Assembly (NCBI RefSeq): GCF_001006045.1
Contig: NZ_CP011267.1
Span: 496,001 to 560,000, forward strand
Direction: 5' to 3'
Source of the DNA: Geoglobus ahangari
Lineage (GTDB): Archaea; Halobacteriota; Archaeoglobi; Archaeoglobales; Archaeoglobaceae
DNA length: 64,000 nt
Below, piece by piece: positions 6,464 to 54,828 of the stretch. The notes under the pieces are model-generated. The model was not told the DNA's origin. It saw only the letters and a list, made by a program, of their open reading frames with translations, and did no database searches. A program made the position numbers and the translations under genes. Position 1 is the first letter of the stretch; every line of letters starts with the position of its first letter.

Positions 6464-6473
6464 AACTTACTAT

Positions 6474-11230: not shown

Positions 11231-11260
11231 AATACCACCCCAGTTATCGTGAAAAAGAAA

Positions 11261-12412
11261 TCAGAACTTGCCTAGAAGGCCTTTAGCTATCGTGTTGAGC
11301 TGGATCTCCTTAGTTCCCTCGTATATCTCCGTGATCTTCGCATCCCTGTAGAACCTCTCCACGTCGTTTTCGGCAACGTACCCATACCCGCCGTGCATCT
11401 GTATCGCCTCATCACACACGTGAACGGCGAGCTTTCCTGCGAGATACTTGGCCATGCTCGTCAGGGTTGGGTCAATTCCGTGCTTGTCGTAGTTCCATGC
11501 GGCCTTGTAAATCAGTAGCCTCGTAGCCTCGATCATGGTGCCAAGGTGAGCTATTCTGTGCTGGAGCGCCTGAAACGCGCCGATTGGCTGCCCGAACTGC
11601 TTCCTCTGCTTCACGTAGTCGAGGGTTCTGTCAAACGCGCCCTGAGCAATGCCGAGAGCCTGAGCGGCGATCTCGATCCTGCTCTCGTCGAAGAATTCAA
11701 GAACCTGATAGAACCCGCGGTTGAGCTGGCCGATTATGTCGTCCTCGCTCACCCTCACGTTCTTGAACACGACCTCGGCAGTTGGGGATGACCTTATGCC
11801 GAACTTCCCGTCTATCTTGTTGGTCTCAAGCCCCTCCGCATCCTTTCTGACGAGGAAGGTCGTGAAGCCGCGGTACCTCGGCTGGGCGTTGGGGTCTGTG
11901 ACGGCGAGGACGACGTAGTAGTCCGCGATCGTTCCGTTGGTTATGAATGTCTTCGAGCCGTTTATCACCCACTCGTCCCCATCCTTCTCCGCCTTCGTCT
12001 TTATGGCCGTGAGATCACTCCCAGCCTCTGGCTCGGTGTAGCAGCCGGCCGTTATGGCCTTTCCGCCAGCAACCTTCGGAAGAACCTCCTCCTTCTGCTC
12101 CTCACTGCCGAACCTCATTATTACCTCAGATGAGAAGTCTGAAAGGATTATCGCGCTGCCAATCGTGCTGTCAGCCCTGCAGAACTCCTCAACTATGAGT
12201 ATGTTCTCCAGAATTCCCATTCCCGCTCCGCCGTACTCCTCGGGGAAGTGCACACCGATGAAGCCGAGCTCGCATGCCTTCTTCCAGAGGTCAAACGGGA
12301 ACTCCTCATTCTGATCGTAGTACCTGCCCCTCTCAGCCGTGAACTCGTTCTGCGCAAACTCCCTCGCGGCCTTCTGAATGTCTTTCTGATCCTGAGTGAG
12401 CTCAAATTCCAT
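11261..12412 (-). CDS. Acyl-CoA dehydrogenase
   Basis: A 383-residue flavoprotein of full family length, first gene of the mutase operon. It introduces the alpha,beta double bond into an acyl-CoA and passes electrons to ETF. Seen are the N-terminal helical domain, FPEEYGGAGMG, the middle beta domain with TEPEAGSDL, the FAD/adenine-binding QMHGGYGY, and the catalytic Glu365 in IYEGTKEIQ, which is the position used by short-chain, medium-chain and butyryl-CoA dehydrogenases. ATG 12412 is preceded by GGAGGTG and a TATA-like AATTTAAAC. Beside an isobutyryl-CoA mutase-like enzyme, butyryl-CoA or isobutyryl-CoA is a reasonable substrate; that is inference. Confidence 0.9.
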   Translation of the reverse strand: MEFELTQDQKDIQKAAREFAQNEFTAERGRYYDQNEEFPFDLWKKACELGFIGVHFPEEYGGAGMGILENILIVEEFCRADSTIGSAIILSDFSSEVIMRFGSEEQKEEVLPKVAGGKAITAGCYTEPEAGSDLTAIKTKAEKDGDEWVINGSKTFITNGTIADYYVVLAVTDPNAQPRYRGFTTFLVRKDAEGLETNKIDGKFGIRSSPTAEVVFKNVRVSEDDIIGQLNRGFYQVLEFFDESRIEIAAQALGIAQGAFDRTLDYVKQRKQFGQPIGAFQALQHRIAHLGTMIEATRLLIYKAAWNYDKHGIDPTLTSMAKYLAGKLAVHVCDEAIQMHGGYGYVAENDVERFYRDAKITEIYEGTKEIQLNTIAKGLLGKF

Positions 12413-38175: not shown

Positions 38176-39810
38176 TCACCTCGCCCCGAACCTCTGCCTC
38201 CAGTCCGGTATCTCCCTGTCCCTGTCCCATCCATGATCCTCTCTCCCCCTCTCCTCTTCCTTGAGCTGCCACTTCTTTATCCTGCCGGTGGGAGTGTAGG
38301 GGAAAGTCTCCACGAACTCTATGTAGCGGGGGATCTTGAAGTACGCCACCTTTCCCGCCATGTACTCCACAATCTCCTCCGGCTTTATCTCCACACCCTC
38401 CTTTGGCCTGATGAACGCCTTGATCTCCTCCCCCCTGAGCTCGTCCAAGACTGGAATGACTGCCACGTCCTGAACCTTTGGATGGCTCTTTATGACATCC
38501 TCAATCTCCCAGCTGGCTATATTCTCCCCGCTCCTCCTGACTATGAACTTCTTGCGGTCGACGAAGTACAGGTAGCCGTCCTCGTCCATCGTGACGAAGT
38601 CCCCGCTGTAGAGCCACCCGTTTCTGATCGTCTCTGCCGTCCTCTCCTCATCTTTCCAGTACCCCAGCATCTGGGCAGGGCTCTTCCTTATCAGCTCCCC
38701 AACCCTTCCCCTCTCCACCTCTTTTCCGGTCTCGTCAACCACCTTCACCTCATGCCCCAGATCCGGGAACACGGGCACTCCAAAGCTCCCTATCTTCTTG
38801 TAGGGGTGTGGAGGGTTCAGGCATGGCAGGGGCTCTTCGGTCTGGCTGTACCCCTCGAGCACCTCAACCCCAAACCTCTCCTCGAACTTCAGCCAGATCT
38901 CCTTGGGCATCCCGCCTATTATCACGTACTTTGCCGGATTGTCCCTCTCGAACTCTGTAGGAGGTAAAGCGTAGAGTATGTTCGCCATCGACCCAAGAAG
39001 GTTGAAGGCGGTTGCTCCATAATTCGACACATCCTCCCAGAACTTTGAAGCTGAAAAAATGCTTCTCAGGGTTATTTTTCCACCCGCAAACATCATGCCG
39101 AGGCTTGAGTAGATCTGGGCGTTGATGTGGAAGAGAGGTAAGCCGGTGTAGTCGTTATCCTCCTCGCCAATCATCCACAGGGTGATCGCCTTTGCTGAGA
39201 GGGTATATGAGTAGTTGGACAGCACGGCACCCTTTGGCAGCCCCGTTGTGCCCGAGGTGTAGATTATCGCCATCGGGTCATCTTTTGAGACGCTAACTTC
39301 AGGATTCCTCGATGAGCCGTCAAGCTGGTCGAGAGTCGTGTACTCCGATGAGTCCCCCCTAACGATTATTCTCTCGAGGTGAGGAAGCTTGTCCTTTATG
39401 CTCTCCACGATGGGGAGCAGGTCTTCCTCGACGATGATTGTCGAGGACTCGCTGTTGCCGATTACGTGTCTGGCGTCAAGCTCCCTGTAGAACCAGTTCA
39501 CCGGGACTTCAATGGCCCCAATTTTGGCACATGCATAAATGCAGCGGAGGTAGTCCAGAGAGTTTCTGAGGTATAGAGCGACCCTGTCCCCCTTTTTAAC
39601 GCCCAGATCCATCAGCGCGTTCCCGATTCTGCTGGCATCCCTGTTAAGCTCCCCGTAGCTCATCCTCTCTCCGGTATCCGCAAAAATTGCGTAGGTGTCG
39701 CTGCCCTTACGCCTCGCCGCAGCCTCAACCGCCTCCTTTACCGTATCTGCTTTTGCCATCTCCTCAGGAAGGTTTCTGACCGCGTAGCTGTATGTCGGCC
39801 ATCCGGCCAA
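38176..39810 (-). CDS. Acyl-CoA synthetase (AMP-forming)
   Basis: A 544-residue adenylate-forming ligase of the fatty acid/aryl acid-CoA ligase type. The P-loop motif is AIIYTSGTTGLPKGAVLS; A5 is seen as EGYSQTEEPLP, A7/A8 as GWLYSGDFVTMDEDGYLYFVDR, and the catalytic Lys in PTGRIKKWQL. The A5 motif of most members has YGxTE; here it is YSQTEE. TTG 39810 is the start, as GGGAGGG lies four bases before it. It would activate the substrate of the pathway encoded divergently (40.7-48.8 kb), since both promoters carry the same 29-nt element. Confidence 0.88.
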   Translation of the reverse strand: MAGWPTYSYAVRNLPEEMAKADTVKEAVEAAARRKGSDTYAIFADTGERMSYGELNRDASRIGNALMDLGVKKGDRVALYLRNSLDYLRCIYACAKIGAIEVPVNWFYRELDARHVIGNSESSTIIVEEDLLPIVESIKDKLPHLERIIVRGDSSEYTTLDQLDGSSRNPEVSVSKDDPMAIIYTSGTTGLPKGAVLSNYSYTLSAKAITLWMIGEEDNDYTGLPLFHINAQIYSSLGMMFAGGKITLRSIFSASKFWEDVSNYGATAFNLLGSMANILYALPPTEFERDNPAKYVIIGGMPKEIWLKFEERFGVEVLEGYSQTEEPLPCLNPPHPYKKIGSFGVPVFPDLGHEVKVVDETGKEVERGRVGELIRKSPAQMLGYWKDEERTAETIRNGWLYSGDFVTMDEDGYLYFVDRKKFIVRRSGENIASWEIEDVIKSHPKVQDVAVIPVLDELRGEEIKAFIRPKEGVEIKPEEIVEYMAGKVAYFKIPRYIEFVETFPYTPTGRIKKWQLKEEERGREDHGWDRDREIPDWRQRFGAR

Positions 39811-39860
39811 TTTTCCCTCCCCAACGACAAAAGAGATGATACCACCTCCGGTTCAGCTAA

Positions 39861-39889
39861 TGTAACGATTATTTATGAGCAAATACAAA
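39861..39889 (-). promoter_or_regulatory. Shared 29-nt promoter/operator element, copy A
   Basis: On the minus strand these 29 bases are identical to 40707-40735 on the plus strand. The core reads TTTGCTCATAAATAATCG and contains both a TATA-like ATAAATAAT and a TGCTCA hexamer. It lies about 50 nt before the acyl-CoA synthetase start. Confidence 0.75.
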
Positions 39890-39907
39890 TCCTTTGAGCC
39901 GGCAATT

Positions 39908-39924
39908 TGAGCATGCCTTGCTCA
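39908..39924. promoter_or_regulatory. Inverted repeat TGAGCA-N5-TGCTCA
   Basis: A perfect 6-bp inverted repeat (arms 39908-39913 and 39919-39924) lies upstream of element A, between the synthetase gene and the divergent regulator. The arms recur as single half-sites beside the other promoters of this cluster. Confidence 0.6.
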
Positions 39925-40046
39925 TGCCTCAAAAACGATTTGTCAGGGCTTCTGGAAAAGGCTGACGGCCAAAAAGCCCCTTCAGTGGTGAAACAAGATG
40001 CTTGAGACTCCGAAAATCTTTTGAAGTAAATTGTAAATTAATAATC

Positions 40047-40604
40047 ATGCCAAAAAGACGGCTGCAGACAACTCTCAGTGATAACGCATTCAGGATCATC
40101 GAGAAGTACCGCTCGAAGTACGGCGGGATGAATGAGGTGATTGAGGAGGCGCTCAAGCAGATGGACAGCGGTTCCAACAGGCTGAGCGAGGACGACAGGC
40201 TTCTGATGGATCTGATAAGGAGCCTCGACTTCACCGCATGCGGGAAAAACCAGTACATGTACCTTGTTCTCGGGGACAGGAAAAGGGCGGTCGAGGAGAG
40301 CATGATGGAGACCGCTGTTGAGTGGTACCTGAAAAAGCCACTGAAGGAGGCGACCCTCGAGGAGTTTCTGAGGACCGTGGAGAGGGGCTGGAAGGCGCTT
40401 AACCGGGTGGACTACATCGAGATCACGAGGGGCGAGGACTGGATTCAGTGGCTCTGCTACCACACGATGAGGCACAGGGAGGTGAGCGAGTTCCTTGCGA
40501 GACACATCACCCTCATCTACGAGAAGTACTTCGCCGACGAGTGGGAGATTGTGGAGAACATAACTCCCAACGGTTTTCTGCTGAAGTTTTACCGGAGGAG
40601 CTAA
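40047..40604 (+). CDS. Putative ribbon-helix-helix transcriptional regulator
   Basis: A 185-residue protein. The first 45 residues (MPKRRLQTTLSDNAFRIIEK and on through YGGMNEVIEEAL) have the strand-helix-turn-helix look of a CopG/Arc-type ribbon-helix-helix domain. The remainder (about 60-185) is a soluble domain rich in Trp and Tyr (WYLKKPLKEATLEEFLRTVE, WIQWLCYHTMRHREVSEFL) that could bind a ligand such as an acyl-CoA. I do not recognise a named family. It sits between the two copies of the 29-nt element, so it is the first candidate for the regulator that binds there. ATG 40047 follows an AT-rich stretch without a Shine-Dalgarno site, which suggests a leaderless or short-leader transcript. 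Confidence 0.6.
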   Translation: MPKRRLQTTLSDNAFRIIEKYRSKYGGMNEVIEEALKQMDSGSNRLSEDDRLLMDLIRSLDFTACGKNQYMYLVLGDRKRAVEESMMETAVEWYLKKPLKEATLEEFLRTVERGWKALNRVDYIEITRGEDWIQWLCYHTMRHREVSEFLARHITLIYEKYFADEWEIVENITPNGFLLKFYRRS

Positions 40605-40681
40605 TTCGGGCTGTAGGTTCTCGAGTGTTGTTGAATAAATTTAAAGCTCTCCATCACCGCTGCCCATACCATACTCACAAA

Positions 40682-40735
40682 TGCTCACACGTTTTTGACA
40701 AACCGTTTTGTATTTGCTCATAAATAATCGTTACA
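40682..40735 (+). promoter_or_regulatory. Shared promoter/operator element, copy B
   Basis: The 29-nt element occurs at 40707-40735, 18 nt before the TTG of the first thiolase-like gene. A TGCTCA half-site (ATGCTCACACGT) at 40682-40687 lies upstream, at almost the same distance as the ATGCTCA box beside copy A (18 and 19 nt). Confidence 0.75.
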
Positions 40736-40752
40736 GTAGAGAGGTGTTACCT

Positions 40753-41835
40753 TTGAGGGTCGGCATTGTTGGCATCGGCATGACCAGTTTTGGCACTCAT
40801 GAAGAGCCCTTCTACAACGTCGCCTACGAGGCTGCCAGAAAGGCTCTGGAAGATGCTGAGATGGAGAGGCACGAGATAGACAACGTCGTTCTTGGAGGGT
40901 ATGACGTCTCGGTGGGCAGAACGATCTCAAACATGTACACCGCACCGGCAGCAGGTGGCTACCTGAAGGACGAGATAAGGGTGAGCGACGATGCAGCATA
41001 CGCTTTGGCCTTAGCGTACATGCGCATAAGATCCGGCATCTTCGACGTTGCGATGGTTCTGGGCTACGGCCACTGCTCTGAGACGCCGATGGAGCTGGTC
41101 GAGCTGCTCACTCTCGACCCCTTCTTCCATCGCGACCTCGGCCTTTCGTACCAGATGAGCTACGCAATGCAGAGCTACACCTACAAGGTGAGGTATGACG
41201 TTGAGGACGAGGTTTCGGCAGAGGTGGTGGCTGAAGCGAGGAAGAGGGCGTTGAAGTATGAGTACGCACACCTGAAGGAAGAGGTGACGGTCGATGAGGT
41301 TCTCAGCTCTGAAATGGCCGTGTTCCCGCTCAGAAAGCTTGAGCTACCACCATGGAGCGATGGATGCATTGCCCTGATTCTGGCCGAGGAGACGGTTGCG
41401 AGGAGGATAAACCCCGAGCCCATCTGGATCGAGGGACTGGGCTGGAACACTGGAAACTACTATCTGGGAAGCAGGGATCTGGCAGAGCTCACGTCAACCA
41501 GAAGGGCCGCTCAGATGGCATACAGAATGGTCGGGTGTGATGCCAGAGGTGTCGATGCTGCCGAGGTCATGGATCTCACCCCCTACCACCACCTGATGTC
41601 CCTCGAGGCACTGGGATTTGCTGAAGACGGCGAGGGAAAGGAGGTTGTGAAGACGGGCATCCCCGTTAACAGATCGGGAGGGGCGCTGTGCACCAACGCC
41701 CACGGCACCACAGGCTTATTCCTGACCGCAAGCTTGGCCCTGCAGATCAGGGAGGGAGCTGACAGGGGTGTCACCAGCGCCGTAAGCGGGTACGCTGCCC
41801 AGAACTCGATCGTGACTGTTCTCGGAGCGAGGTGA
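40753..41835 (+). CDS. Thiolase-fold protein without the nucleophilic Cys (Ltp-like)
   Basis: A 360-residue member of the thiolase/SCP-x-type lipid-transfer family. The N-terminus RVGIVGIGMTSFG and ALEDAEMERHEIDNVVLGG are typical. Where thiolases have the reactive Cys (pattern NNxCSTG) this protein reads RVSDDAAYALALAY at 76-89, so no Cys is available. The later GHPxGxTG His loop is TNAHGTTGL, with Asn in the His position. It can hardly work as a normal thiolase; relatives without Cys include the steroid retro-aldolase Ltp2. TTG 40753 has GAGGTG six bases before it. It lies 4 nt before the second thiolase-like gene, and the two probably form a complex with the DUF35 protein. Confidence 0.8.
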   Translation: MRVGIVGIGMTSFGTHEEPFYNVAYEAARKALEDAEMERHEIDNVVLGGYDVSVGRTISNMYTAPAAGGYLKDEIRVSDDAAYALALAYMRIRSGIFDVAMVLGYGHCSETPMELVELLTLDPFFHRDLGLSYQMSYAMQSYTYKVRYDVEDEVSAEVVAEARKRALKYEYAHLKEEVTVDEVLSSEMAVFPLRKLELPPWSDGCIALILAEETVARRINPEPIWIEGLGWNTGNYYLGSRDLAELTSTRRAAQMAYRMVGCDARGVDAAEVMDLTPYHHLMSLEALGFAEDGEGKEVVKTGIPVNRSGGALCTNAHGTTGLFLTASLALQIREGADRGVTSAVSGYAAQNSIVTVLGAR

Positions 41836-41839
41836 GAGG

Positions 41840-42967
41840 ATGAAGAGGGTAGCTGTCGTGGGAGTTGGACAGACGAGGTTCAGAACCAGAAGGGACGACA
41901 AAACCCACCCGGAACTAACGCGAGAGGCGGTCTCAAGGGCATTGGACCACGCGGGCATCTCAATGGAAGACGTTGACGCCTTCGTCTTCGGAACGATGGA
42001 TCCATTCGACGGGATAAACTGCCCAGATCGGTGGAGCTCCACAGCTGCAGGATTCGGAAAGCCATTCATGAAGATAAGTACAGGCGGAACCACAGGCCTG
42101 ACGACCGGAATCGCTGCCTACCAGCACGTGGCAAGCGGAATGTTTGATGTTGTCGTTGCGGTTTGCACCCAGCGCGTGGGGGAGAATGTCGATGCCCAGC
42201 CTGTCCTGAACACTGCCGTAGACCCGATCTACGAGGGGCACTCCGGGGTTGGGGCCATAAGCGTCGCTGCAATACAGGCCACGGCCCACATGCAGAGGTT
42301 CGGCACAACCGAGGAGCAGATGGCGTGGGTTTCCGTGAAGGATCACGAGAGTGCCCTGAAAAACCCTTACGCCCACATCAGGAAGAGGTTGAGCGTCGAG
42401 GACGTGCTCTCCAGCCCCGTCATCTCCTCTCCCCTGAAGCTCTACGAGTGCTGTCCGAGGAGCGACGGCAGCGTGGCGATCGTCTTCGCATCCGAGGAGA
42501 GGGCGAAGGAGATCAGGGACAACCCGGCGTGGATTCTCGCCGAGTCTTCAATAAGCGACTCCTACTTCGTTGGCGACCGCCCGGATCTTGCGGTCTGGGA
42601 TTCGCTGAGCATAGCTGGAAGGAGACTGTACAGGCTTGCAGGCGTGGACGATCCAAAGAGGGACATAGACGTTGCCGAGCTCTACTCCCCATTCACGATT
42701 CAGGAGATTCTCGAACTCGAGGCTCTGGGCTTCGCTGAAAAAGGAGAGGGTGCGAGGCTCGCTGAGGAGGGGGTTACCTTCGCTGACGGAGACATGCCCA
42801 CAAATCCTTCAGGCGGGGTGCTCTGCACCAACCCCATAGGGGCCACCGGACTGGTGAGGCTCGGCGAGGCTTCACTTCAGGTTATGGGCGAGGCGAGCAA
42901 TCAGGTCGACGGGGCTGAGGTTGCCTTAGCCCACGCATGGGGGGAACGCTGCAGTTCCACGCCCTAA
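41840..42967 (+). CDS. Second thiolase-fold protein without Cys and His (Ltp2-like)
   Basis: A 375-residue thiolase-family protein that starts VAVVGVGQTRFRTRR. The nucleophile block reads MKISTGGTTGLTTGIAAYQH at 77-96: the Cys is replaced by Thr or Gly, and the K-I-x-x-G-G pattern recalls Ltp2. The segment ELYSPFTIQEILELEALGF keeps the Tyr that in Ltp2-type aldolases lines the active site. The terminal loop is CTNPIGATGLV, so the catalytic His is Asn. It follows four bases after the first thiolase-like gene. Role: probably C-C bond cleavage or formation on a CoA ester with the DUF35 partner; alternatively one of the two is only structural. Confidence 0.8.
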   Translation: MKRVAVVGVGQTRFRTRRDDKTHPELTREAVSRALDHAGISMEDVDAFVFGTMDPFDGINCPDRWSSTAAGFGKPFMKISTGGTTGLTTGIAAYQHVASGMFDVVVAVCTQRVGENVDAQPVLNTAVDPIYEGHSGVGAISVAAIQATAHMQRFGTTEEQMAWVSVKDHESALKNPYAHIRKRLSVEDVLSSPVISSPLKLYECCPRSDGSVAIVFASEERAKEIRDNPAWILAESSISDSYFVGDRPDLAVWDSLSIAGRRLYRLAGVDDPKRDIDVAELYSPFTIQEILELEALGFAEKGEGARLAEEGVTFADGDMPTNPSGGVLCTNPIGATGLVRLGEASLQVMGEASNQVDGAEVALAHAWGERCSSTP

Positions 42968-42982
42968 TGCTCGTTTCGAGCA
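42968..42982 (+). promoter_or_regulatory. Intercistronic inverted repeat
   Basis: TGCTCG-TTT-CGAGCA forms a 6-bp perfect stem with a 3-nt loop right after the stop of the second thiolase-like gene and about 25 nt before the DUF35 start. It could be an mRNA hairpin that sets transcript ends, or an operator related to the TGCTCA half-sites. Confidence 0.4.
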
Positions 42983-43006
42983 ATAAGAAGCTCGGGAGGT
43001 GATGTT

Positions 43007-43462
43007 ATGGTTTTGAAGATCGAGGCGAAGTGGGAGATTCCCTACGTGCATTCCGCTGGTGAGCACGCGACGAGGTTCTTCGAGGCGCTCAAGGAGAAGA
43101 GGATTCTGGGGGTGAGGTGCCCCAGATGCGGAAGGGTGCTCGTGCCGCCAAGGGCCTTCTGCGAGCGCTGCTATGTCGATACAGACGAGTGGGTGGAGGT
43201 CAAGGACGAGGGGGTGATCGAAACCCTCACCATCAACTACGCCCGCTTTACAGGGCTGCCAGAACCCCCATATGCTGTGGGCATAGTGAAGCTCGACGGA
43301 GCGGACACGGGAATGCTGGCCTACCTCGGGGGCGTTGACCTCTCAGACTGGAAGAAGGCCCATGAGAGGCTTAAGATCGGGACGAGGGTCAGGGCGGTCT
43401 GGAAGGACGAACCAGAGGGCAGGATCACGGACATCCTCTACTTCAAACCTGTGGAGGAATGA
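43007..43462 (+). CDS. DUF35 OB-fold zinc protein (thiolase partner)
   Basis: A 151-residue protein with the rubredoxin-like zinc ribbon GVRCPRCGRVLVPPRAFCERC near residues 35-55 and a C-terminal OB fold (VGIVKLDGADTGMLAYLGGVD). DUF35 proteins bind to thiolase-fold enzymes: acetoacetyl-CoA thiolase/HMG-CoA synthase in archaea, BbsA with BbsB, and ChsH2 with Ltp2. It shuttles or holds the CoA ester. GGAGGTGATGTT precedes ATG 43007. It overlaps the MaoC gene by 4 nt. Confidence 0.9.
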   Translation: MVLKIEAKWEIPYVHSAGEHATRFFEALKEKRILGVRCPRCGRVLVPPRAFCERCYVDTDEWVEVKDEGVIETLTINYARFTGLPEPPYAVGIVKLDGADTGMLAYLGGVDLSDWKKAHERLKIGTRVRAVWKDEPEGRITDILYFKPVEE

Positions 43463-43923
43463 CGGGGATGATGGGGGAGGGCTGGTACTTCGAGGACTAC
43501 GAGGTTGGAAGGGAGATCAAAAGCAGCTCGAGAACCGTAACCGAGGCAGACATCGTCAATTTTGCGGGGATAACCGGGGACTGGAACCCCATCCACACCG
43601 ACGAGGAGTTCGCCAAGAAAAGCGTTTTCGGGAGGAGGGTGGCCCACGGAACGCTCACCTTCGCGATAATGACCGGACTGTTCGCCAGACTCGGGATCAT
43701 CGAGAGGACGATCGTCGCATTCTACGGCGTTGACAGGCTTCGCTTTGTGAAGCCGGTCTTCATCGGGGACACGCTCACGGCTGTGGCGAGGATCGTGGAC
43801 AAGGAAGATAGGGGAAATGCGGGCATGATCGTGATGGAGGCCAGCGTCGTTAACCAGCGCGGTGAGGTTGTCCTCACAGGCACCGTCAGGTTTCTTGTAA
43901 AGAAGCGTGGAGAGGTGGGCTGA
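43459..43923 (+). CDS. MaoC-like enoyl-CoA hydratase
   Basis: A 154-residue hot-dog-fold hydratase. The catalytic motif is DWNPIHTDEEFAKKSVFGRR then VAHGTLTF, which holds the Asp and His of (R)-specific enoyl-CoA hydratases. It adds water to an alpha,beta-unsaturated acyl-CoA made by the adjacent dehydrogenase. Start codons are ATG 43459 (4-nt overlap with the DUF35 gene) or ATG 43468 or 43471, the latter with better spacing from GGAGG. In the steroid pathway the hydratase is a MaoC-DUF35 pair; here the two genes are adjacent and separate. Confidence 0.9.
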   Translation: MTGMMGEGWYFEDYEVGREIKSSSRTVTEADIVNFAGITGDWNPIHTDEEFAKKSVFGRRVAHGTLTFAIMTGLFARLGIIERTIVAFYGVDRLRFVKPVFIGDTLTAVARIVDKEDRGNAGMIVMEASVVNQRGEVVLTGTVRFLVKKRGEVG

Positions 43924-43925
43924 GC

Positions 43926-45110
43926 ATGGACTTCAGGCTTACGGAAGAGCAGAGGATGATTGCAGACGCGGCGAAGGACATAGCGAGGGACTTTCCTCCA
44001 GAGTACTGGAGGGAGAAGGACGAGAAGGGTGAGTTCGCGGAGGAGTTCTGGAAGGCCATAAGCAGGGCTGGTTTTGTCGGCATAGTGATCCCCGAGGAGT
44101 ACGGCGGAGCAGGAATGGGGATGACTGAACTGCTAATAGCGATGGAGGAGCTCTGCGCAAATGGCTGTGGAGCGGGGGGTGTGTGGTACCTCGTTCTGAC
44201 AGAGGTCTTCGGTGCCCTGCCCATTGTTAGGTACGGAAACGAGGAGCAGAAGGAGAGGTACCTGCCGGAGATTGCGAAGGGCAGGATGGAGTTCTGCATG
44301 GCTCTGACCGAGCCGAACGCCGGCACGAACACGCTCAGGATAGAGACCCACGCAAGGAAGGAGGGGGATGAGTATGTGATCAACGGCACGAAGATGTTCA
44401 TCAGCGGTGTTGACAGGGCAAAGGGTATGCTCCTCGTGGCAAGGACGATCCCCTACTCTCAGGCTCCGAAGAAGACGCTGGGAATAACTCTCTTTCTCGT
44501 CGATCTGCCCAACAAAGCCGTTAAGTGGAACCCCATACCCAAGCACGGAATAAACTTCTCGAAAACCTGCGAGGTCAGTATCTCCGACCTGAGAGTTGGA
44601 GAGGACGCGATACTGGGCGAGAAGGACAGGGGATGGTATCAGGTTCTCGACGTCCTCAACCCCGAGAGGATGAGTGCTGCAGCGGGAGCAATTGGCATAT
44701 CCAGACTCGCCATAGGAAAAGCCGTGGAGTACTCGAGGCAGAGGAGGGTGTTTGAGGATCCCATCGGCAGCTATCAGGGACTGCAGTTTCCCCTCGCCGA
44801 GAGCTTCGCCACCATAAAGGCTGCGGAGCTGATGATGTTCAGGGCCGCGTGGCTGTACGACAACAGCGCCAGCTACAAGGAAATCGGAGATGCGGCGAAC
44901 ATGGCAAAGCTCGTTGCAATCGAGAACGCAATAAAAGCAGTCTACTGGGCGATGCAGACCTTCGGCGGTTATGGCTACACGAGGGAGTACGACGTTGAGA
45001 GGTGGTGGAGGGAGGTGAACCTGCTCCGTCTCGCCCCAATAACCCAGCAGATGGCTCTGAACTACGTGGCCGAGCACATTCTCGGAATGCCCAGAAGCTA
45101 CAGGGGCTAA
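43926..45110 (+). CDS. Acyl-CoA dehydrogenase with Glu in the isovaleryl-type position
   Basis: A 394-residue acyl-CoA dehydrogenase. FAD and substrate blocks include IPEEYGGAGMG, ALTEPNAGTN, and MQTFGGYGYTREYDVERW. The usual catalytic Glu of the C-terminal YEGT motif is absent: the sequence there is RLAPITQQ (369-376). Instead Glu247 in LNPERMSAAAG aligns with Glu254 of isovaleryl-CoA dehydrogenase, which also serves long-chain and branched substrates. So the enzyme should be active on a branched or bulky acyl-CoA. ATG 43926 follows GAGGTGGGCTGAGC, three bases after the MaoC stop. Confidence 0.88.
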   Translation: MDFRLTEEQRMIADAAKDIARDFPPEYWREKDEKGEFAEEFWKAISRAGFVGIVIPEEYGGAGMGMTELLIAMEELCANGCGAGGVWYLVLTEVFGALPIVRYGNEEQKERYLPEIAKGRMEFCMALTEPNAGTNTLRIETHARKEGDEYVINGTKMFISGVDRAKGMLLVARTIPYSQAPKKTLGITLFLVDLPNKAVKWNPIPKHGINFSKTCEVSISDLRVGEDAILGEKDRGWYQVLDVLNPERMSAAAGAIGISRLAIGKAVEYSRQRRVFEDPIGSYQGLQFPLAESFATIKAAELMMFRAAWLYDNSASYKEIGDAANMAKLVAIENAIKAVYWAMQTFGGYGYTREYDVERWWREVNLLRLAPITQQMALNYVAEHILGMPRSYRG

Positions 45111-45231
45111 AGCCCTTATTTTTAGTTTTAAAGGCCAAAAAATAAAAAACCATCATAAAAACGCATTAATAAAATACAAAATTTGGAAATATTTGGATAG
45201 CAATTTATACAACCTGAGCACAATTTCAGTC
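45111..45231. other. Gap with T-rich terminator and promoter
   Basis: After the dehydrogenase, TTATTTTTAGTTTT (45117-45130) is a probable terminator. TTTATAC (45204-45210) is a TATA-like element 25 nt before the ATG at 45232, and TGAGCA at 45215-45220 is another half-site of the cluster. The unknown gene may thus be leaderless and in the same regulon. Confidence 0.5.
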
Positions 45232-46029
45232 ATGACCAAAAGAATTCTGAATCTGGGCTACGTGAGGGATGCCTCCGTCGACAATTACGACCCGAACGAA
45301 GAGTACAGCCTGATATCCGCCAAGGACAGCAGCATCAGGCCCGATCCGGAAATGGCAGCCACTGGGGTGGACATTGGCCTGATGCGCCTCCACATCCACA
45401 ATGCCCCGGAGAGGAGGAGGTTTCTCGGCCTGCTGCCCGATAAAAGCTACGAGATAATGGTGACATTCTCCGCAGTCCACATTCACCAGCGCGATGACAG
45501 TGGCAGGGACGTGCTGAAGGTGAGGTACTCCAAGTTCTTCAACATAGACAAGGAGGACTCCGCGGGAGGGTTCACATACAAGAAGATGTTTCAGAACCTG
45601 AAGTTCAAGAGGAGCCTGAGCCTCGACGTGAAGCTGACGGAGATCGACAACAAGATTGTCGACCCCGACCCTCTTGAGAGTCTGCTCGAGGACACCGGCA
45701 TAGGTACGGTGCTCGACCTCGCCCCATACAACCCGAAGGAGTACATACTGCTGGCCTCAAACATAATCTCGAAGATTCAGGAGGTTTTCGGTGTGGATAA
45801 AGCCGGAGACGACCCGCTGTGGGACGACACATTAGTTCTCGAGCCAAAGCCAACCATCCCCGGAAGCTACAGGCTCCGCGAGGGGTTCTATGCGATTGTA
45901 GAGGAGTACCCCGGATTCGACTTTGGAGAGATCGTTTACAAGAACAACGCACTCTACCAGCGTGGAAGCGAGAGGGAGATCCCTACGAACTACCTCGTCT
46001 TCTCCATAGGAAAGAGCCTGCCCTCTTGA
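45232..46029 (+). CDS. Unrecognised 265-residue soluble protein
   Basis: This protein starts MTKRILNLGYVRDASVDNYD and has no signal peptide, membrane helix or Cys. It seems to be mostly beta strand: IGLMRLHIHNAPERRRFLGL, YEIMVTFSAVHIHQRDDSGR, then a helical middle (NPKEYILLASNIISKIQEVF) and a C-terminal strand part, PGSYRLREGFYAIVEEYPG and TNYLVFSIGK. I do not know the family. It sits within the acyl-CoA cluster with its own TATA box. It may be a scaffold, sensor, or unrelated cargo. No function is proposed. Confidence 0.6.
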   Translation: MTKRILNLGYVRDASVDNYDPNEEYSLISAKDSSIRPDPEMAATGVDIGLMRLHIHNAPERRRFLGLLPDKSYEIMVTFSAVHIHQRDDSGRDVLKVRYSKFFNIDKEDSAGGFTYKKMFQNLKFKRSLSLDVKLTEIDNKIVDPDPLESLLEDTGIGTVLDLAPYNPKEYILLASNIISKIQEVFGVDKAGDDPLWDDTLVLEPKPTIPGSYRLREGFYAIVEEYPGFDFGEIVYKNNALYQRGSEREIPTNYLVFSIGKSLPS

Positions 46030-46066
46030 TTTTTTAGACCGACGTGCTGGCATTTCTCATTTTTTA

Positions 46067-46114
46067 ATGCTCACACGTGCTCATAAACGCTGAAAAACGT
46101 TATTTATGAGCTCA
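46067..46114 (+). promoter_or_regulatory. Cluster promoter/operator, copy C
   Basis: This region carries ATGCTCACACGT, as at 40681, then TGCTCATAAACG (46078-46089) and the palindrome TGAGCTCA (46107-46114) within TTATTTATGAGCTCATCATAA. It lies some 40-90 nt before the start of the second CoA-transferase pair. The 29-nt element is not exact here, but TTAATCGTTAAAT at 46121-46133 resembles its end. Confidence 0.6.
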
Positions 46115-46155
46115 TCATAATTAATCGTTAAATTATTCGGGAGGTGGATGGAGGA

Positions 46156-47490
46156 ATGAACGAGGACTATTTTGGCTGGACTGAAAGGCTGTTCGATCCG
46201 GAGCAGACGTTTCTCAAGCCAGAAGCGCTCAGGGGAATCAGGGTTCTGGACCTCTCCCAGGTTCTGATAGGCCCCGAGACCGCGTCGCTCTTTGCAGAGT
46301 TCGGGGCAGAGGTCATCAAGATCGAGCCACCGGGGATGGGAGAATTGCTAAGGAGCGTTGACATCTGGTCCAGATTCTGGAAGGGGCACAGTCAGGGGGT
46401 GATGTGGGTTCAGAGGAACAAGTACTTCTTCGGGCTGAACCTCAAGCACCCCAAGGGAAAGGCCATCTTCTACGAGCTCGTCAAGCAGAGCGACATAGTT
46501 GTGGAGAACTACGTGCCGGGGGTTATGGACGAGCTGGGCGTTGGCTACAGGCAGCTCAGAGAGATCAATCCAGAGATCATCTACATCTCCATAAGCGGGT
46601 TCGGACAGTGGGGGGAGAGATGGAACTGGCCGAGCTGGGATGCTACGGCGCAGGCGGCGAGCGGAGCCTCTGCGGTCTCCGGCTATCAGGAGAGGGTTCC
46701 CGCAAAGCTCCCGTACTACCCCGGAGACATGCTCGGCGGGGCTGCAGCCTTCATGGTTGGGATGGCAGCACTCTACCACCGGGAGAGGACGGGCGAGGGC
46801 CAGTACATAGACGTAACCCAGGCAGAGAACCTCGCAAGGCATCTCAGCTTCATCTGGAGCTACGTGGCAAAGAAGGGAGAGGACTGGAGAAGGCTGGGGA
46901 ACAGGGACGCGAGCATCTCTCCCGCAAACGCCTTCAAGTCCGCCGATGGAAGGGTTGTCACCATAACAGCCCTGACGGACGGGCAGTTCAGGGGGCTCTG
47001 CGAGGCGATGGGTAGAGCGGAGCTTGCAGAGGACGAGCGCTTCGCCACGCTTCCTGCGAGGCTCAGGAACAGGGACGAGCTGGAGAGGATCATCGAGGAG
47101 TGGGTGTCCAGAACTAACTCCGAGGAGATCGTCAGGCTCTCAGCAGAGCACGGCTTCTCAGCAGGCGTCGCAAGGAACGGGATGGAGGTGTATCAGGACG
47201 AGCATCTCAGGGCAAGGGGAAGCGTGTGGTTCTACGACGACCCGATGTTTGGTGAGATGGTCGCTGCTGGCTCGCCCATGAAGATGAGCGAGACTCCCGG
47301 CAGAATAAAGTGGTCAACGCACCCAGTTGGCTACCACAACCGCTACGTCCTGAAGACTCTGCTGGGGTTCAGCGACGACGAGATCGAGGAGCTGGAGAGG
47401 GAAGGGGTCATCGGGTACTGGGCCGACTTCATCGGCAGGAAGCCACCCGAGGGAGTTGACCCCGAGAGAGACCCCATCTTCATGTGGTGA
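46156..47490 (+). CDS. CaiB/BaiF family III CoA-transferase, larger subunit (second pair)
   Basis: A 444-residue family III CoA-transferase related to the larger subunit at 5-6.4 kb. The CoA-binding N-terminus reads IRVLDLSQVLIGPETASLF and FGAEVIKIEPPG; the catalytic Asp is in NWPSWDATAQAASG. ATG 46156 lies after GGAGGTGGATGGAGG. Its stop overlaps the next gene by one base (TGATG). The substrate is probably the acid or ester handled by this cluster, moved onto or off CoA. Confidence 0.86.
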   Translation: MNEDYFGWTERLFDPEQTFLKPEALRGIRVLDLSQVLIGPETASLFAEFGAEVIKIEPPGMGELLRSVDIWSRFWKGHSQGVMWVQRNKYFFGLNLKHPKGKAIFYELVKQSDIVVENYVPGVMDELGVGYRQLREINPEIIYISISGFGQWGERWNWPSWDATAQAASGASAVSGYQERVPAKLPYYPGDMLGGAAAFMVGMAALYHRERTGEGQYIDVTQAENLARHLSFIWSYVAKKGEDWRRLGNRDASISPANAFKSADGRVVTITALTDGQFRGLCEAMGRAELAEDERFATLPARLRNRDELERIIEEWVSRTNSEEIVRLSAEHGFSAGVARNGMEVYQDEHLRARGSVWFYDDPMFGEMVAAGSPMKMSETPGRIKWSTHPVGYHNRYVLKTLLGFSDDEIEELEREGVIGYWADFIGRKPPEGVDPERDPIFMW

Positions 47491-48801
47491 TGCCTATGGA
47501 GTGGCATGAGGTTTCGAAGCAGTATTTCGAGGTTGAGAGGGCCAGATTCAAGAAGGGGCCCCTCGAGGGAGTGGTGGTGTTTGACATAAGCCTTGCGAGC
47601 CCCGCTGCCACCTTCGCATCATCCGTGCTGGCGGAGATGGGGGCGGAGGTCATAAAGGTGGAGCCTCCTGATGGCGATCCCCTGAGGAAGCTCACGCCCT
47701 TCGGGGAGTACTACTTCGACGGAACCGGACTGCCCTTCGCTGTGGAGGGGAGAAACAAGAAGTACATGACCCTCGATCTGGAGAAAGAGGAGGGAAGGGA
47801 GCTTTTCAAACAGCTCGTCCTGCATGCTGACGTCGTCATCGAGTCCTTCCCGCCCGGTTATGCGGATGAGCTCGGCATAGGCTACAGGCAGCTGAGAGAG
47901 ATAAGGCCGGAAATAGTGTTACCTCGCCTTCTCAGCCTACGGCCATTTCGGGCCAAAGGCAAAGGAGTTCGCCAGCGTGCCGGACTCGAACCTTCTCGGC
48001 GTGGCGATGTCGGGCTACATGATGGCCAACCGCGAGCTGCCGGAGGCCGGGGAACCCTACAACCTCCCCACAGCCCCGGGATTCTGGATGGCGACGAACC
48101 TTGCAGGCATATACGGCGCTGCGGGAGTCGTTCTCGCCCTGTACCACAGACTGAGGTCCGGAAGGGGGCAGATGATCGACGTGACATCCATAGAGGCCAT
48201 GAACAAGATATCTCTCCAGCTCATCTGGAGCCACGCGTTCAACGAGCCCCTTAACGTCGGGGTTCTCCCCTTGGACTATGCCGTCTTCCCCTACGCATAC
48301 TGGAGAACCAAGGACGGTTACGTCTTCGCCGCAGGCTTCACAGACCCCAACTTCACCGCCCTCGTGACCCAGCTTGGAAGGGAGGACTTGCTCGAGAAGT
48401 ACCCCAACGTGTTCGCCAGAATCAAGCTTGAAAACCAGAAGGAGCTTTACCGGGAGCTGCAGAAGGAGTTCGAGAAGTACACCTTCGAGGAGCTGGTTGA
48501 GAAGATGCTCAAGTGGAGGTACGAGGGCAGAGAGGGAGTTGCTGTGTACTCGAGGATTGCAACGCCTAAGGAGGTTCTGGAGGAGAGCTACTGGAGGGAG
48601 AGGGAGGTCTTCAGGGAGATGGTCGACAGGAGGTATGGGGAGATTACAGTGATAAACCCGGTCTGGAAGCTCAGCCAGACTCCCTTAAAGCTCAAATGGC
48701 TGGCAAAGAAGGCTGGAGAGGACAACTACCACGTATACAAGAGGTTTCTTGGTCTGGGAAGGAAAGAGCTCTCAGACTTAAAGAGCGCGGGGGTGATTTA
48801 G
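47490..48801 (+). pseudogene. CaiB/BaiF CoA-transferase, smaller subunit, frameshifted at about 47919
   Basis: Two frames together give a complete 436-residue protein like the one at 3733-5031. The first frame runs to REIRPEIV and then goes out of register; the second continues with YLAFSAYGHFGPKAKEFASV. Deleting one T at GTGTTACC (47919-47920) joins them. So there is either a true single-base insertion, a sequencing error in a TT, or recoding. In addition, the family Asp is missing: the site reads VPDSNLLGVAMSG where the paralogue has LPDYDVINQAMGG, thus Asn for Asp. A subunit without the Asp could still be structural, as proposed for one subunit of BbsEF-type enzymes. The C-terminal half looks under selection. 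Confidence 0.8.
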
Positions 48802-50988: not shown

Positions 50989-52044
50989 ATGAGGTCAAAG
51001 GCATATCTGGCCCTGATGTTGGTTCTCGCAGTTGGTGTGGCGCTTGCCGGTTGCGCACAGCAGCAGGAGAAGCCTGCTGCAACGCCCACGCCAACACCGC
51101 AGAAGGCCGAGGGAGTAAAGATACCCAAAACCGAGGATGGAAAGTACATCATAACCATATACACCGGCTCAGGCCCCGGAAGCGTTTACTTCGCCGTTGG
51201 CTCGATGTACGCAAAGGTTCTGAACAAGAAGAGCGACATGATCGAGGCGAAGGGAGTTACGAGCGGTGCGAGTGTCGCAAACGCCAAGGCAATTGGCAAG
51301 GGTGAGGCTCTCGCAGCCATAATCCAGAACGACGTCACCTACTACGCGTGGAACGGAAAGTTCCAGTTCGAAGGAAAGCCGGTGAAGGAGCTGAGGGGAA
51401 TTGGCACGCTCTATCCAGAGCCCGTGCAGATAGTGGTGAGGGCTGACAGCGACATCTACAGCCTCGAAGACCTGAGGGGCAAGAAGGTTGTGGTTGGTGC
51501 TGCAGGCAGCGGTGTCGCGGCAACGGCCGAGAGGGTTCTGAAGGCTGCTGGAATCTGGGACGACATCGAGCCCGTGTATCAGACCTTCAGCGAAGCGGCT
51601 CAGAGCCTCGTTCTCGGACAGGTGGATGCCGAGTTCACGGTCATAGCCTATCCAGCTCCGGCCATAGACCAGATCGCTGTTAAGGTTCCCGTAAGACTGC
51701 TCCCGATTCCGGATGAGGTCGTTCAGAAGCTCCACGACGAGGGATACCCGTTCTACGTGAAGGTTACAGTCCCTGCAGGCACGTACAACGGGCAGGATGA
51801 GGACGTGCAGACGATTGCCGTGAAGGCGACGCTTGCAGTCCACAAGGACGTGCCCGACGAGGTTGTCTACGAGATGACAAAGATCCTGTACGAGAACATA
51901 GACGAGCTCGCCAAGGCTCATCAGGTCGCGAAGCAGATAGATATGCACAAGGCGTTCGAGGGGCTCATGATCCCGCTGCACCCCGGAGCGATAAAGTACT
52001 ACGAGGAGCAGGGGATTACGGTACCAGCGGAGCTCAAGCCGTGA
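50989..52044 (+). CDS. TRAP transporter substrate-binding protein, TAXI family
   Basis: A 351-residue lipoprotein. The signal peptide ends with the lipobox VALAGC at residues 18-23, followed by a Thr/Pro linker (TPTPTPQ). The mature domain shows YTGSGPGSVYFAVGSMYAKV and SGASVANAKAIGKGEAL, the TAXI-TRAP receptor pattern. Such receptors bind amino acids or other carboxylates outside the membrane and deliver them to the membrane subunit. The two next genes belong to the same operon. Confidence 0.9.
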   Translation: MRSKAYLALMLVLAVGVALAGCAQQQEKPAATPTPTPQKAEGVKIPKTEDGKYIITIYTGSGPGSVYFAVGSMYAKVLNKKSDMIEAKGVTSGASVANAKAIGKGEALAAIIQNDVTYYAWNGKFQFEGKPVKELRGIGTLYPEPVQIVVRADSDIYSLEDLRGKKVVVGAAGSGVAATAERVLKAAGIWDDIEPVYQTFSEAAQSLVLGQVDAEFTVIAYPAPAIDQIAVKVPVRLLPIPDEVVQKLHDEGYPFYVKVTVPAGTYNGQDEDVQTIAVKATLAVHKDVPDEVVYEMTKILYENIDELAKAHQVAKQIDMHKAFEGLMIPLHPGAIKYYEEQGITVPAELKP

Positions 52045-52055
52045 GGTGTCTCTGA

Positions 52056-52514
52056 TTGAATAAACGCCATCCATTTTTATTTTTGTTTTTGGCCCCCTTG
52101 GCGGCGGTTCTTGCATTCCGTCCCGTTCACGTTCTCGAAATCACGTTTAACGATTTCAATCTCCTCGTTCCCCTTTCGGGAACATCCACGCTGTCAGTTG
52201 AGTACACCCACAGCGTGTCCCTCACCAAGGTTGTTGACGTTTACAGAATCAATGAAAGCGGAATTTACGCGTATGAGGAGAAGTGGCAGGAGTTCCTCGC
52301 GGGTCAGCCCCTGAACGGAAGCCCCGAGGGAGAGTTCTTTGTGAAGAGGCTTGACAAAAGCCTCGGAAAGGAGTGGATGTACTGGTTCATAGAGGTTAAC
52401 CACTTCAGGCTCGTGCTGGACGGAAGGCCCGTCTTCGAGCAACCTGCCGAGGACGGACTTCTGGTGATTAGGGTTAAGGAGGTTTCTGCATTCAAGGCGC
52501 ATGCGGGGTGGTAG
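52056..52514 (+). CDS. DUF1850 protein of the TRAP operon
   Basis: A 152-residue protein with one N-terminal hydrophobic anchor (FLFLFLAPLAAVLAF) and an outside domain with the family block LSVEYTHSVSLTKVVDVYRI. DUF1850 genes are often found between TAXI receptors and fused TRAP permeases. Role unknown, perhaps an accessory subunit. It begins with TTG at 52056 (MNKRHPF), 11 nt after the receptor gene. Confidence 0.78.
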   Translation: MNKRHPFLFLFLAPLAAVLAFRPVHVLEITFNDFNLLVPLSGTSTLSVEYTHSVSLTKVVDVYRINESGIYAYEEKWQEFLAGQPLNGSPEGEFFVKRLDKSLGKEWMYWFIEVNHFRLVLDGRPVFEQPAEDGLLVIRVKEVSAFKAHAGW

Positions 52515-52515
52515 A

Positions 52516-54828
52516 GTGACGGACGTAATGGACGAGGTTGAGAAGTACGTTGCTCTGGAGAGGACGAGAACCCTCTCGGAGAAGCTGGAGCTTGCTGTGA
52601 AGATAGCGGCCGTGCTCATAGGGATTTACGAGATCCTGTTCATCTTCAACTTCACGTACTCGATCTACGACGTAGTTGCAAGGCTCGGGTACAAGATCTC
52701 GCTGCTCAGGCTGGACTTTCAGGACAAGCAGGGAGAGGCCTTTGTACTGGCCATGATTTTAGTGATAGCGTTCCTGAGGTACCCGATAAGGGACAAGGAG
52801 AAGTACCTGAAGAGCGTGCAGTTCTACGACTGGATACTCATCGCCTTAAGCCTTGCGAGCATGTTCTACATGTTCTACCGCTTTCCGACGTACATGGTCT
52901 TCTACGACGTCAACACCTACGACGTGATCTTCGGGCTCATCGCAATTGCTGTTGTGCTCGAGGCGACGAGGAGAACAGTGGGCTGGATTCTTCCGGCAAT
53001 TGTCCTCGTTTTTCTGGCGTACGGCATAAGGGACACGATGTTCAACTGGAACAGATTCGTCCAGTACCTCTACCTCGATCAGGGAATCTTCGGAATCCCG
53101 TTCTACGTCATGACAATCTACGTCTTCGCGTTCGTCTTCTTCGGAGCCTTCCTGCTGAGGATTGGAGTAAGTGATTACATAACCCGATTCATGATCTCCC
53201 TCTTCGGACCGAGGCAGGGGGGTCCTGCGAAGGCTGCTGTGGTTTCAAGCGGTTTAATGGGGACTGTCAGCGGGAGTTCTGTTGCAAACGTCCTCACGAC
53301 TGGAACATTCACGATTCCGCTGATGAAGAAGGCAGGATATCCATCAGAGACCGCCGGAGCCGTTGAGCCTGTCGCGTCAACGGGCGGACAGCTCATGCCG
53401 CCGATAATGGGTGCGGCTGCGTTCATCATGGCCCAGTTCCTCGGTGTGCCGTACAACAAGCTGATAATTGCCGCAATTCTGCCAGCGCTCATCTACTATG
53501 CGGGAGTTTACATCTTCATAGACCTCGAGACCAAGAGGCTCGGCCTGAAGGGGCTGTCGAGAGATTCGTTCACACAGCTCAGCTACTTCATCAGGAAGCT
53601 GTACATCCTTTTGCCGATAGCGGTCATAACCATCGCCCTTGTCTGGGGAATAGCCCCGCACATTGCCGCGATATCCTCTCTCGGAATAGCCATATGGGTC
53701 GCATGGATCTCAAAGGACGAGATTCCGGGTGACGAGAAGATATACGTCCCGTTCGTCGTCATGGCGATCCTGCTGATGTTCTCCGGCAGAGAACTATCCC
53801 ACATCACCGCCCCACTACTTCTGCTGCTCGCGCTCGCCCTAATAGCTCTCGCGTTCACCAAGAGGATAGAGTTCAACGAGAAGCTCTACATCAGCCTTCT
53901 GTTCATAGCCTTCGCAGCATTCTGCAAGTTTCTGGGGCTCAGAAAGGAGGCCATACTCCTGATGAGCGGTGTCTTCGGGATAGTGTTCTCAATCCTCATC
54001 GGCAGAGTCTCCAAGACGGAAGTGGGGAAGAAGATGTCCTTCGCGACCTACGAGTCCATGATTGATGCCGGCATAACGAGCACGAGCGTCATGCTTGCAG
54101 CAGCGAGTGCCGGACTGATACAGGGAGTTCTGACGATGACCGGCCTTGTCACAAGCCTCGGTTACAAGCTCATTGACCTGACAGGCGGCTACCTCATGCT
54201 CCTGCTGATCATGGCCATGATATTCAGCCTGATCCTCGGCATGGGTGTGCCCACGACGGCAAACTACGTCATAACCTCCCTCGTCGCAGCCCCGGCAGTA
54301 TTCAACGCCGTTGCAGGAAATGCTGTTTATGATGCGCTCGTTCCCGGCACGGCAACAGCCACAGCCCTTCTTGCAGCCCACTTCTTCGTCTTCTACTTCG
54401 GAATCCTCGCCGACCTGACACCACCTGTCGCCCTCGCGGCCTACGCAGGCTCGGCTTTAGCGGGAAGCGACTTCTGGAAGACGGCAAAGAACTCCGTCAA
54501 GTACGCGTTAGCGGGCTACATAGGGCCGTACATCTACTTCACCCACCCGGAGATGTTCCTGATAACCGTGCAGAACTGGGACCTGTTCATGATTCTGAAG
54601 GTGCTTTACTACTTCCTCGCAAGCTTGCTGGTGATGTACATGCTTGCCGTTGCGATAACGGGCCACTTTGGAAGACCGCTCAGAAAGGAGTTCAAGGCCA
54701 TTATCGGCCTTCTTGGGGTTAGCGGGGCCACGCTGCATGTCATCCCAATTGCCCTCGGCGCTGGGGCGCTGCTGGGCCTCAGAATATACAACAGCAGGTT
54801 GAGAGGTGAGACGGTTGAGGAGTACTGA
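52516..54828 (+). CDS. TRAP transporter fused permease (4TM/12TM, DctQM-like)
   Basis: A 770-residue membrane protein with about 17-19 helices in which the small and large TRAP membrane subunits are fused, as in most TAXI systems. The DctM-like part is seen as KAAVVSSGLMGTVSGSSVANVLTTG and PVASTGGQLMPPIMGAAAFIMAQ, and LILGMGVPTTANYVI near the end. It uses the Na+ or H+ gradient. The start is GTG 52516 after GGTGG, or ATG 52528 or 52501. It ends 14 nt inside the aminotransferase gene. Confidence 0.92.
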   Translation: MTDVMDEVEKYVALERTRTLSEKLELAVKIAAVLIGIYEILFIFNFTYSIYDVVARLGYKISLLRLDFQDKQGEAFVLAMILVIAFLRYPIRDKEKYLKSVQFYDWILIALSLASMFYMFYRFPTYMVFYDVNTYDVIFGLIAIAVVLEATRRTVGWILPAIVLVFLAYGIRDTMFNWNRFVQYLYLDQGIFGIPFYVMTIYVFAFVFFGAFLLRIGVSDYITRFMISLFGPRQGGPAKAAVVSSGLMGTVSGSSVANVLTTGTFTIPLMKKAGYPSETAGAVEPVASTGGQLMPPIMGAAAFIMAQFLGVPYNKLIIAAILPALIYYAGVYIFIDLETKRLGLKGLSRDSFTQLSYFIRKLYILLPIAVITIALVWGIAPHIAAISSLGIAIWVAWISKDEIPGDEKIYVPFVVMAILLMFSGRELSHITAPLLLLLALALIALAFTKRIEFNEKLYISLLFIAFAAFCKFLGLRKEAILLMSGVFGIVFSILIGRVSKTEVGKKMSFATYESMIDAGITSTSVMLAAASAGLIQGVLTMTGLVTSLGYKLIDLTGGYLMLLLIMAMIFSLILGMGVPTTANYVITSLVAAPAVFNAVAGNAVYDALVPGTATATALLAAHFFVFYFGILADLTPPVALAAYAGSALAGSDFWKTAKNSVKYALAGYIGPYIYFTHPEMFLITVQNWDLFMILKVLYYFLASLLVMYMLAVAITGHFGRPLRKEFKAIIGLLGVSGATLHVIPIALGAGALLGLRIYNSRLRGETVEEY

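Follow-up and report, generated by a model that had tools for sequence, protein, structure and literature searches.

A conserved gene cluster of Geoglobus ahangari with Ltp3/Ltp4-like thiolase-fold proteins and its possible role in retro-aldol cleavage of branched acyl-CoA esters

Gene content and conservation of the cluster

We analyzed a 64,000-nt stretch of the Geoglobus ahangari genome (NZ_CP011267.1, positions 496,001 to 560,000; hereafter, the window), which is a single contig of 1,770,093 bases, and describe here a gene cluster within it that centers on two thiolase-fold proteins, ThA and ThB. An earlier reading of the bare sequence (the original prediction) had placed here, in adjoining genes, an acyl-CoA synthetase (ACS), two thiolase-fold proteins devoid of the nucleophilic Cys, a DUF35 protein, a MaoC hydratase, an unusual acyl-CoA dehydrogenase (ACAD) and a CoA-transferase pair. 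Gene calls and Pfam/NCBIfam searches located every one of these genes at its predicted place (Table 1). The gene cluster is a real, conserved operon, and ThB and, less firmly, ThA were found to be akin to Ltp3 and Ltp4, respectively, of the actinobacterial cholesterol cluster.

The ThA, ThB, DUF35, MaoC and ACAD genes are co-directional and, from ThA to ACAD, are spaced by short gaps or overlaps; the DUF35 and MaoC genes share 4 nt and the two CoA-transferase genes 7 nt. The ACS gene is divergent from ThA in G. ahangari but co-directional with it in other Archaeoglobi, and its ortholog (76–93% identical) adjoins ThA in several genomes. REG is possibly a small DNA-binding regulator, which is a guess; its ortholog is retained next to the cluster in Geoglobus and in some Archaeoglobus genomes.

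Table 1. Features of the cluster, with positions in the window.
Feature	Position	Strand	Evidence
Acyl-CoA synthetase (ACS), AMP-binding	38176..39810	-	Pfam PF00501/PF13193
REG, conserved protein	40002..40604	+	no significant Pfam/NCBIfam match
ThA, degenerate thiolase-fold subunit, Ltp4-like (less firm)	40750..41835	+	motifs, tree, AF2 model
ThB, Ltp3-like thiolase-fold subunit	41840..42967	+	motifs, tree, AF2 model of intact ortholog
DUF35/ChsH2-type zinc ribbon and OB-fold protein	43007..43462	+	PF12172, PF01796
MaoC-type (R)-enoyl-CoA hydratase	43459..43923	+	PF01575, motif
Acyl-CoA dehydrogenase (ACAD)	43926..45110	+	PF02771/PF02770/PF00441
Protein of unknown family	45193..46029	+	no Pfam match
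Class III CoA-transferase 1 (CoAT1), first of pair	46144..47490	+	PF02515, 358 bits
Class III CoA-transferase 2 (CoAT2), second of pair	47484..48801	+	PF02515 in 3′ part

The DUF35 protein carries a canonical C-x2-C-x10-C-x2-C zinc site and matches 6ok1_B (the DUF35 part of ChsH2) and 9myr_B. In the MaoC protein, whose closest solved structure is 1q6w, the hydratase motif is intact (GDWNPIHTD). The ACAD proved to be unusual indeed, with Pro at the position of the catalytic Glu of MCAD and with a Glu in NPERM, which may correspond to the catalytic position of isovaleryl-CoA dehydrogenase (IVD/LCAD). The orthologs keep both residues, and so does a paralog with 79% identity.

CoAT1 and CoAT2, two adjacent CoA_transf_3 genes, constitute a class III CoA-transferase pair of the BbsEF kind, and their paralogs form four other pairs in the genome. 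The pair lies downstream of the gene of unknown family, which is in line with the operon, although its membership is uncertain; among the Archaeoglobi loci compared, the pair and this gene belong to the cluster in Geoglobus only. The homolog of the unknown product in Geoglobus sp. UBA235 is a partial match from which a large middle portion is absent. The predicted pair is present as two adjacent genes, but the second is frameshifted by one extra T near 47918 relative to Geoglobus sp. UBA235. Likewise, in comparison with close relatives including UBA235, ThB lacks one base near 42945, which alters its last residues; the ThA, ThB and DUF35 orthologs of UBA235 and of Archaeoglobus fulgidus are intact. 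As these two single-base indels sit in otherwise conserved genes, sequencing errors are suggested, though they may be mutations.

ThB orthologs (73–94% identity) were found, with the cluster core, in 13 of 55 Archaeoglobaceae genomes, G. ahangari itself included. Because this core is syntenic across Archaeoglobi at 55–94% protein identity, the clustering is more than chance. In the Archaeoglobi loci read, ThA and DUF35 were adjacent, and MaoC and ACAD lay alongside wherever the contig was long enough; in an Archaeoglobi genome of 2,178,400 bases the order was MaoC-ACAD-ligase-ThA-ThB-DUF35. Most Archaeoglobi clusters contain an acyl-CoA synthetase and no CoA-transferase.

A wider search of genome_contigs (84,980 species), run with a pair of short patterns, returned 467 relatives, of which 80 were kept. 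They came from Archaeoglobi, Asgard-related and Thermoprotei archaea, Ca. Methanolliviera, Chloroflexota, Deltaproteobacteria, Actinomycetota, Acidobacteriota and others, and the description of the system as archaeal was too narrow, the majority of the loci found being bacterial. ThA was upstream of ThB in 72 of the 80 loci and, by profile search, in two more; five of the other six were cut by a contig end. Near ThB we counted DUF35 (75 loci), ACAD (39), ligase (31), MaoC (30) and CoA-transferase (6), numbers that are minima since many contigs are short. In an unbiased family survey of the ThB neighbors, only the beta-keto acid cleavage enzyme (PF05853; seven loci: L082, L086, L097, L099, L110, L115 and L122) and an acyl-CoA carboxylase (five loci) stood out, neither of them in Archaeoglobi loci.

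Related modules were also found elsewhere. Outside the window, the same genome holds a second Ltp3/4-type module (C1:1122275-1130366; L163, L183) with ThA′, ThB′ (Gly, YDPF, GNP), two DUF35 genes, the paralogous ACAD mentioned above and a convergent class III CoA-transferase pair. Among plasmid relatives there was one close case, on pLP1 of Rhodococcus qingshengii VT6 (L054, 6518-17336). It encodes ACADs, MaoCs, a degenerate 304-aa ThA, a 45% identical ThB, DUF35, a CoA-transferase, a short-chain dehydrogenase/reductase (SDR) and a ligase, set among mycofactocin-coupled and flavin oxidoreductases; no known substrate is recorded for this cluster. A closely related cluster is present in Frankia sp. 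AiPs1 (L112).

Two further observations concern the surroundings. Downstream of the cluster (window 50989-54825) lies a TRAP transporter with an NMT1/TAXI-like binding protein, DUF1850 and a DctM permease, and a TAXI TRAP system is likewise found next to a thiolase/DUF35/ACAD cluster on a Pseudosulfitobacter plasmid (L056). On the minus strand, window 3736-12412 holds in one run a CoA-transferase pair, a carbon-nitrogen hydrolase, MeaB, a methylmalonyl-CoA mutase large subunit and, with Glu at the MCAD position, an ordinary ACAD; the run is possibly a mutase-based route for a substituted succinate.

Kinship and active sites of ThA and ThB

To place ThA and ThB among thiolase-fold enzymes, a careful tree of 59 sequences was built, in which each named group is one side of a branch. 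ThB grouped with Ltp3 (support 99/95) and ThA with Ltp4 (98/99), while the thiolases, including BbsB and the thiolase of the archaeal 3-hydroxy-3-methylglutaryl (HMG)-CoA synthase complex (6esq), formed a separate group (97/90), as did Ltp2 and Sal (100/99). Neither protein falls among the 6esq-type thiolases of the mevalonate pathway, a placement that would have refuted the original prediction. A ThB profile scored Ltp3 at 386–392 bits, the tested thiolases at 298 bits or less and Ltp2/Sal at 136–196 bits. The assignment of ThA to Ltp4 is less firm, as Ltp4 sits on a long branch and scored modestly, not above thiolases, with the ThA profile.

The cholesterol cluster holds Rv3521, ltp4 (Rv3522), ltp3 (Rv3523) and ltp2 (Rv3540c) (PMC6429209). 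Actinobacterial Ltp4 orthologs (NCBIfam NF005924, above cut-off) showed the gene order DUF35-Ltp4-Ltp3. In one genome (G351) roughly 23 kb separate this trio from an Ltp2 whose match to the solved TcLtp2 scores 598 bits, the layout expected of the cholesterol cluster, and we therefore used the names Ltp3 and Ltp4 for the reference sequences.

Alignment confirmed that the nucleophilic Cys of thiolases is missing from both proteins. In ThB its position is taken by Gly83, the HDCF motif reads Y282-S-P-F and Asn331 stands in for the GHP His, so that the active-site pattern of Ltp3 (Gly, YxPF, NP) is present. Over the 80 loci, Gly occupied the Cys position in 80 of 80, a count that is partly built in, TGG being part of one scan pattern. 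The patterns did not include the Tyr that replaces the HDCF His (78/79) or the Asn that replaces the GHP His (79/79). These positions of ThB are thus almost invariant across archaea and bacteria. The motif Tyr corresponds to a residue that is catalytic in both TcLtp2 and CtSal: it is the base in CtSal, TcLtp2 likewise uses it, and the Gly at the nucleophile position of CtSal was taken by its authors to exclude thiolysis (PMC12329534). The Cys of "CTNP" was considered as the second catalytic residue of ThB and dropped because relatives carry Ser, Ala or Thr there. ThA has no Cys nucleophile, MDLT for HDCF and TNA for GHP, and varies at all three catalytic positions across the 80 loci.

AlphaFold2 (AF2) models of ThA (pLDDT 92) and of an intact ThB ortholog (pLDDT 88.6) both showed a thiolase fold. 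Since both matched all SCP2-type thiolases about equally, the fold comparison says "thiolase fold" and no more, and was rejected as a discriminator.

Proposed cleavage of branched acyl-CoA esters and its alternatives

We propose, at a probability of roughly 0.55, that the cluster is a catabolic module for β-branched acyl-CoA esters in which ThA, ThB and the DUF35 protein perform a retro-aldol cleavage, with ThB as the catalytic chain. Kinship with Ltp3/Ltp4, the trio of genes shared with their loci, the near-invariant ThB residues and the intact MaoC motif and ACAD Glu speak for it. The acid would be activated by ACS, a step that the CoA-transferase pair could take over in Geoglobus; ACAD would introduce a 2,3-double bond, and MaoC would add water to it to give a tertiary 3-hydroxyacyl-CoA. 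As such a tertiary alcohol is not oxidizable to the 3-ketone, the cleavage would have to be aldolytic. A ThA/ThB heteromer held by the DUF35 protein could then cut the C2–C3 bond, with Tyr282 of ThB as the proposed base and ThA as a structural or regulatory partner, to release a ketone and a short acyl-CoA (acetyl-CoA where C2 is unbranched). The same tertiary-alcohol problem is posed by C24-branched sterol side chains, for which a review describes Ltp3-Ltp4 as a heteromeric aldol-lyase (PMC6678751), and an analogous cleavage by an enzyme of the HMG-CoA-synthase superfamily has been proposed for anaerobic limonene breakdown (PMC12583861). Retro-aldol cleavage instead of thiolysis, as the original prediction had it, would fit the Cys-less folds, the DUF35 partner and the presence of hydratase and dehydrogenase in the operon, and its chemistry appears plausible.

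Several points weigh against this proposal. The activity of Ltp3/Ltp4 rests on gene disruptions cited in reviews, and we found no biochemistry of the pair in the literature; nor did we find documented growth on a branched acid. ThB shows no clear counterpart of the second catalytic residue (Tyr344 of Ltp2, Cys304 of Sal) and has Pro in YSPF, and its best match in the non-discriminating fold search is the archaeal HMG-complex thiolase. The Archaeoglobi clusters inspected contain no 3-hydroxyacyl-CoA dehydrogenase, which would favor the proposal, but this is weak evidence because such enzymes exist elsewhere in the G. ahangari genome (PMC4600277).

As to the substrate, a branched acid is still the most economical guess. 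Candidates are isoprenoid acids and isovalerate, to which alkylsuccinates can be added where the cluster has CoA-transferases; the data do not choose among them. An aromatic-derived substrate, also suggested originally, was rejected as unlikely, as the genome paper reports neither benzoate degradation genes nor growth on aromatics (PMC4600277). A broader idea, which we regard as doubtful, is that an O2-independent archaeal route for 3-methyl-branched isoprenoid acids (e.g., phytanate from archaeal lipids), in which hydration and a retro-aldol step get past the β-methyl group and release acetyl-CoA and a methyl ketone, in place of α-oxidation or carboxylation, is widespread in anaerobic archaea and bacteria. 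The literature on archaeal DUF35 aldolases, anaerobic phytanate pathways and alkylsuccinate retro-aldol cleavage yielded nothing direct.

The enzyme kinds of the cluster (CoA-transferase pair, dehydrogenase, hydratase, DUF35 with a thiolase fold) are also those of the bbs operon, and BbsB is among the structural matches in the PDB. It is very unlikely, however, that a BbsAB-like DUF35-thiolase here splits a substituted succinyl-CoA by ordinary thiolysis after benzylsuccinate-like β-oxidation: BbsB retains Cys, HDAF and GHP and sits in the thiolase clade, whereas ThB has lost all three and sits with Ltp3, a BbsCD-type dehydrogenase is not in the cluster, and outside Geoglobus the CoA-transferases are absent from it. 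We considered as well that the CoA-transferase pair forms (1-methylalkyl)succinyl-CoA at the expense of succinyl-CoA and that, after dehydrogenation and hydration, the aldolase yields a 2-alkanone and regenerates succinyl-CoA as co-substrate. The β carbon of this ester is tertiary, both Ltp3/4-type modules of the genome adjoin CoA-transferase pairs, and a pyruvate-formate-lyase-like gene (alkylsuccinate synthase family) occurs in 9 of the 13 ThB genomes vs. 7 of the 42 others (Fisher p = 0.0007, kinship uncorrected). Yet ThB occurs without the glycyl-radical enzyme in G027, G011 and G013, and the reverse holds in G025, G026 and G014, so that a tight link between the two was rejected: they are associated, not one to one. 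With an acyl-CoA synthetase instead of a CoA-transferase in most Archaeoglobi clusters, and with a mutase-based alkylsuccinate route equally possible (CoA-transferase pair, MeaB and mutase, window 3736-11230), we hold the alkylsuccinate route to be improbable.

Since aldol reactions are reversible, the ThA/ThB/DUF35 complex could also act in the synthetic direction, or it could be a non-catalytic acyl-CoA-binding scaffold, given that ThA lacks most catalytic residues and that ThB offers no clear second one. The near invariance of the ThB active site argues against this, and the ACS, ACAD and MaoC neighbors point to breakdown; we consider it rather unlikely.

β-branched acids are blocked in ordinary β-oxidation, and the well-known bypasses need oxygen or a carboxylase. 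If retro-aldol cleavage by ThA/ThB/DUF35 holds true, strict anaerobes would have a third and simple bypass in a heteromeric retro-aldolase encoded next to a dehydrogenase and a hydratase, of relevance to isoprenoid lipid and hydrocarbon breakdown in hot sediments. Many genes now annotated as thiolases would be corrected, and the system would offer a heat-stable model for Ltp3-Ltp4, a pair that we found described on genetic grounds only.

Comparison with known systems

The cluster shares with the actinobacterial Ltp3-Ltp4 system (Rv3521-Rv3523 type) two adjacent thiolase-fold genes with a DUF35 gene, the pairing in the tree and the Gly/Tyr-x-Pro-Phe/Asn-Pro pattern. It differs in its hyperthermophilic, anaerobic, iron-reducing archaeal host, in a single DUF35 vs. 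a tandem DUF35 of roughly 300 residues, in the loss from ThA of the Tyr that Ltp4 keeps, and in the link to stand-alone MaoC, ACAD and CoA-transferases, with nothing indicating sterols.

The parallel originally drawn, with ChsE, ChsH1-ChsH2 and Ltp2 of the cholesterol C3 side chain, did not hold at the level of families, and on sequence grounds the assignment is best corrected to Ltp3/Ltp4. Common to both systems are a Gly where thiolases have the Cys, a Tyr within the HDCF motif, a C4 zinc DUF35 and, as predicted here, retro-aldol chemistry. However, Ltp2 belongs to another clade, its YDHF is YSPF in ThB and its Tyr344 is replaced; two thiolase-fold subunits stand against one, a stand-alone MaoC with intact motif and an unfused DUF35, in overlapping genes, against the fusion in ChsH2, and one full-length ACAD against the ChsE1-ChsE2 pair. 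The bile-acid aldolase CtSal-Shy resembles ThB in the Gly at the Cys position and the motif Tyr but has YDCY with the essential Cys304, a C3H1 zinc site in its DUF35 and a place in another clade.

The benzoylsuccinyl-CoA thiolase BbsAB and its operon, alike in enzyme kinds, differ in the thiolase residues, all kept by BbsB and none by ThB, and the bbs operon has a crotonase-type hydratase and an SDR pair. Finally, the archaeal acetoacetyl-CoA thiolase/DUF35/HMG-CoA synthase complex (6esq) has the same fold and a DUF35 partner, but it contains a true Cys thiolase of another clade, and HMG-CoA synthase is not in the cluster described here.

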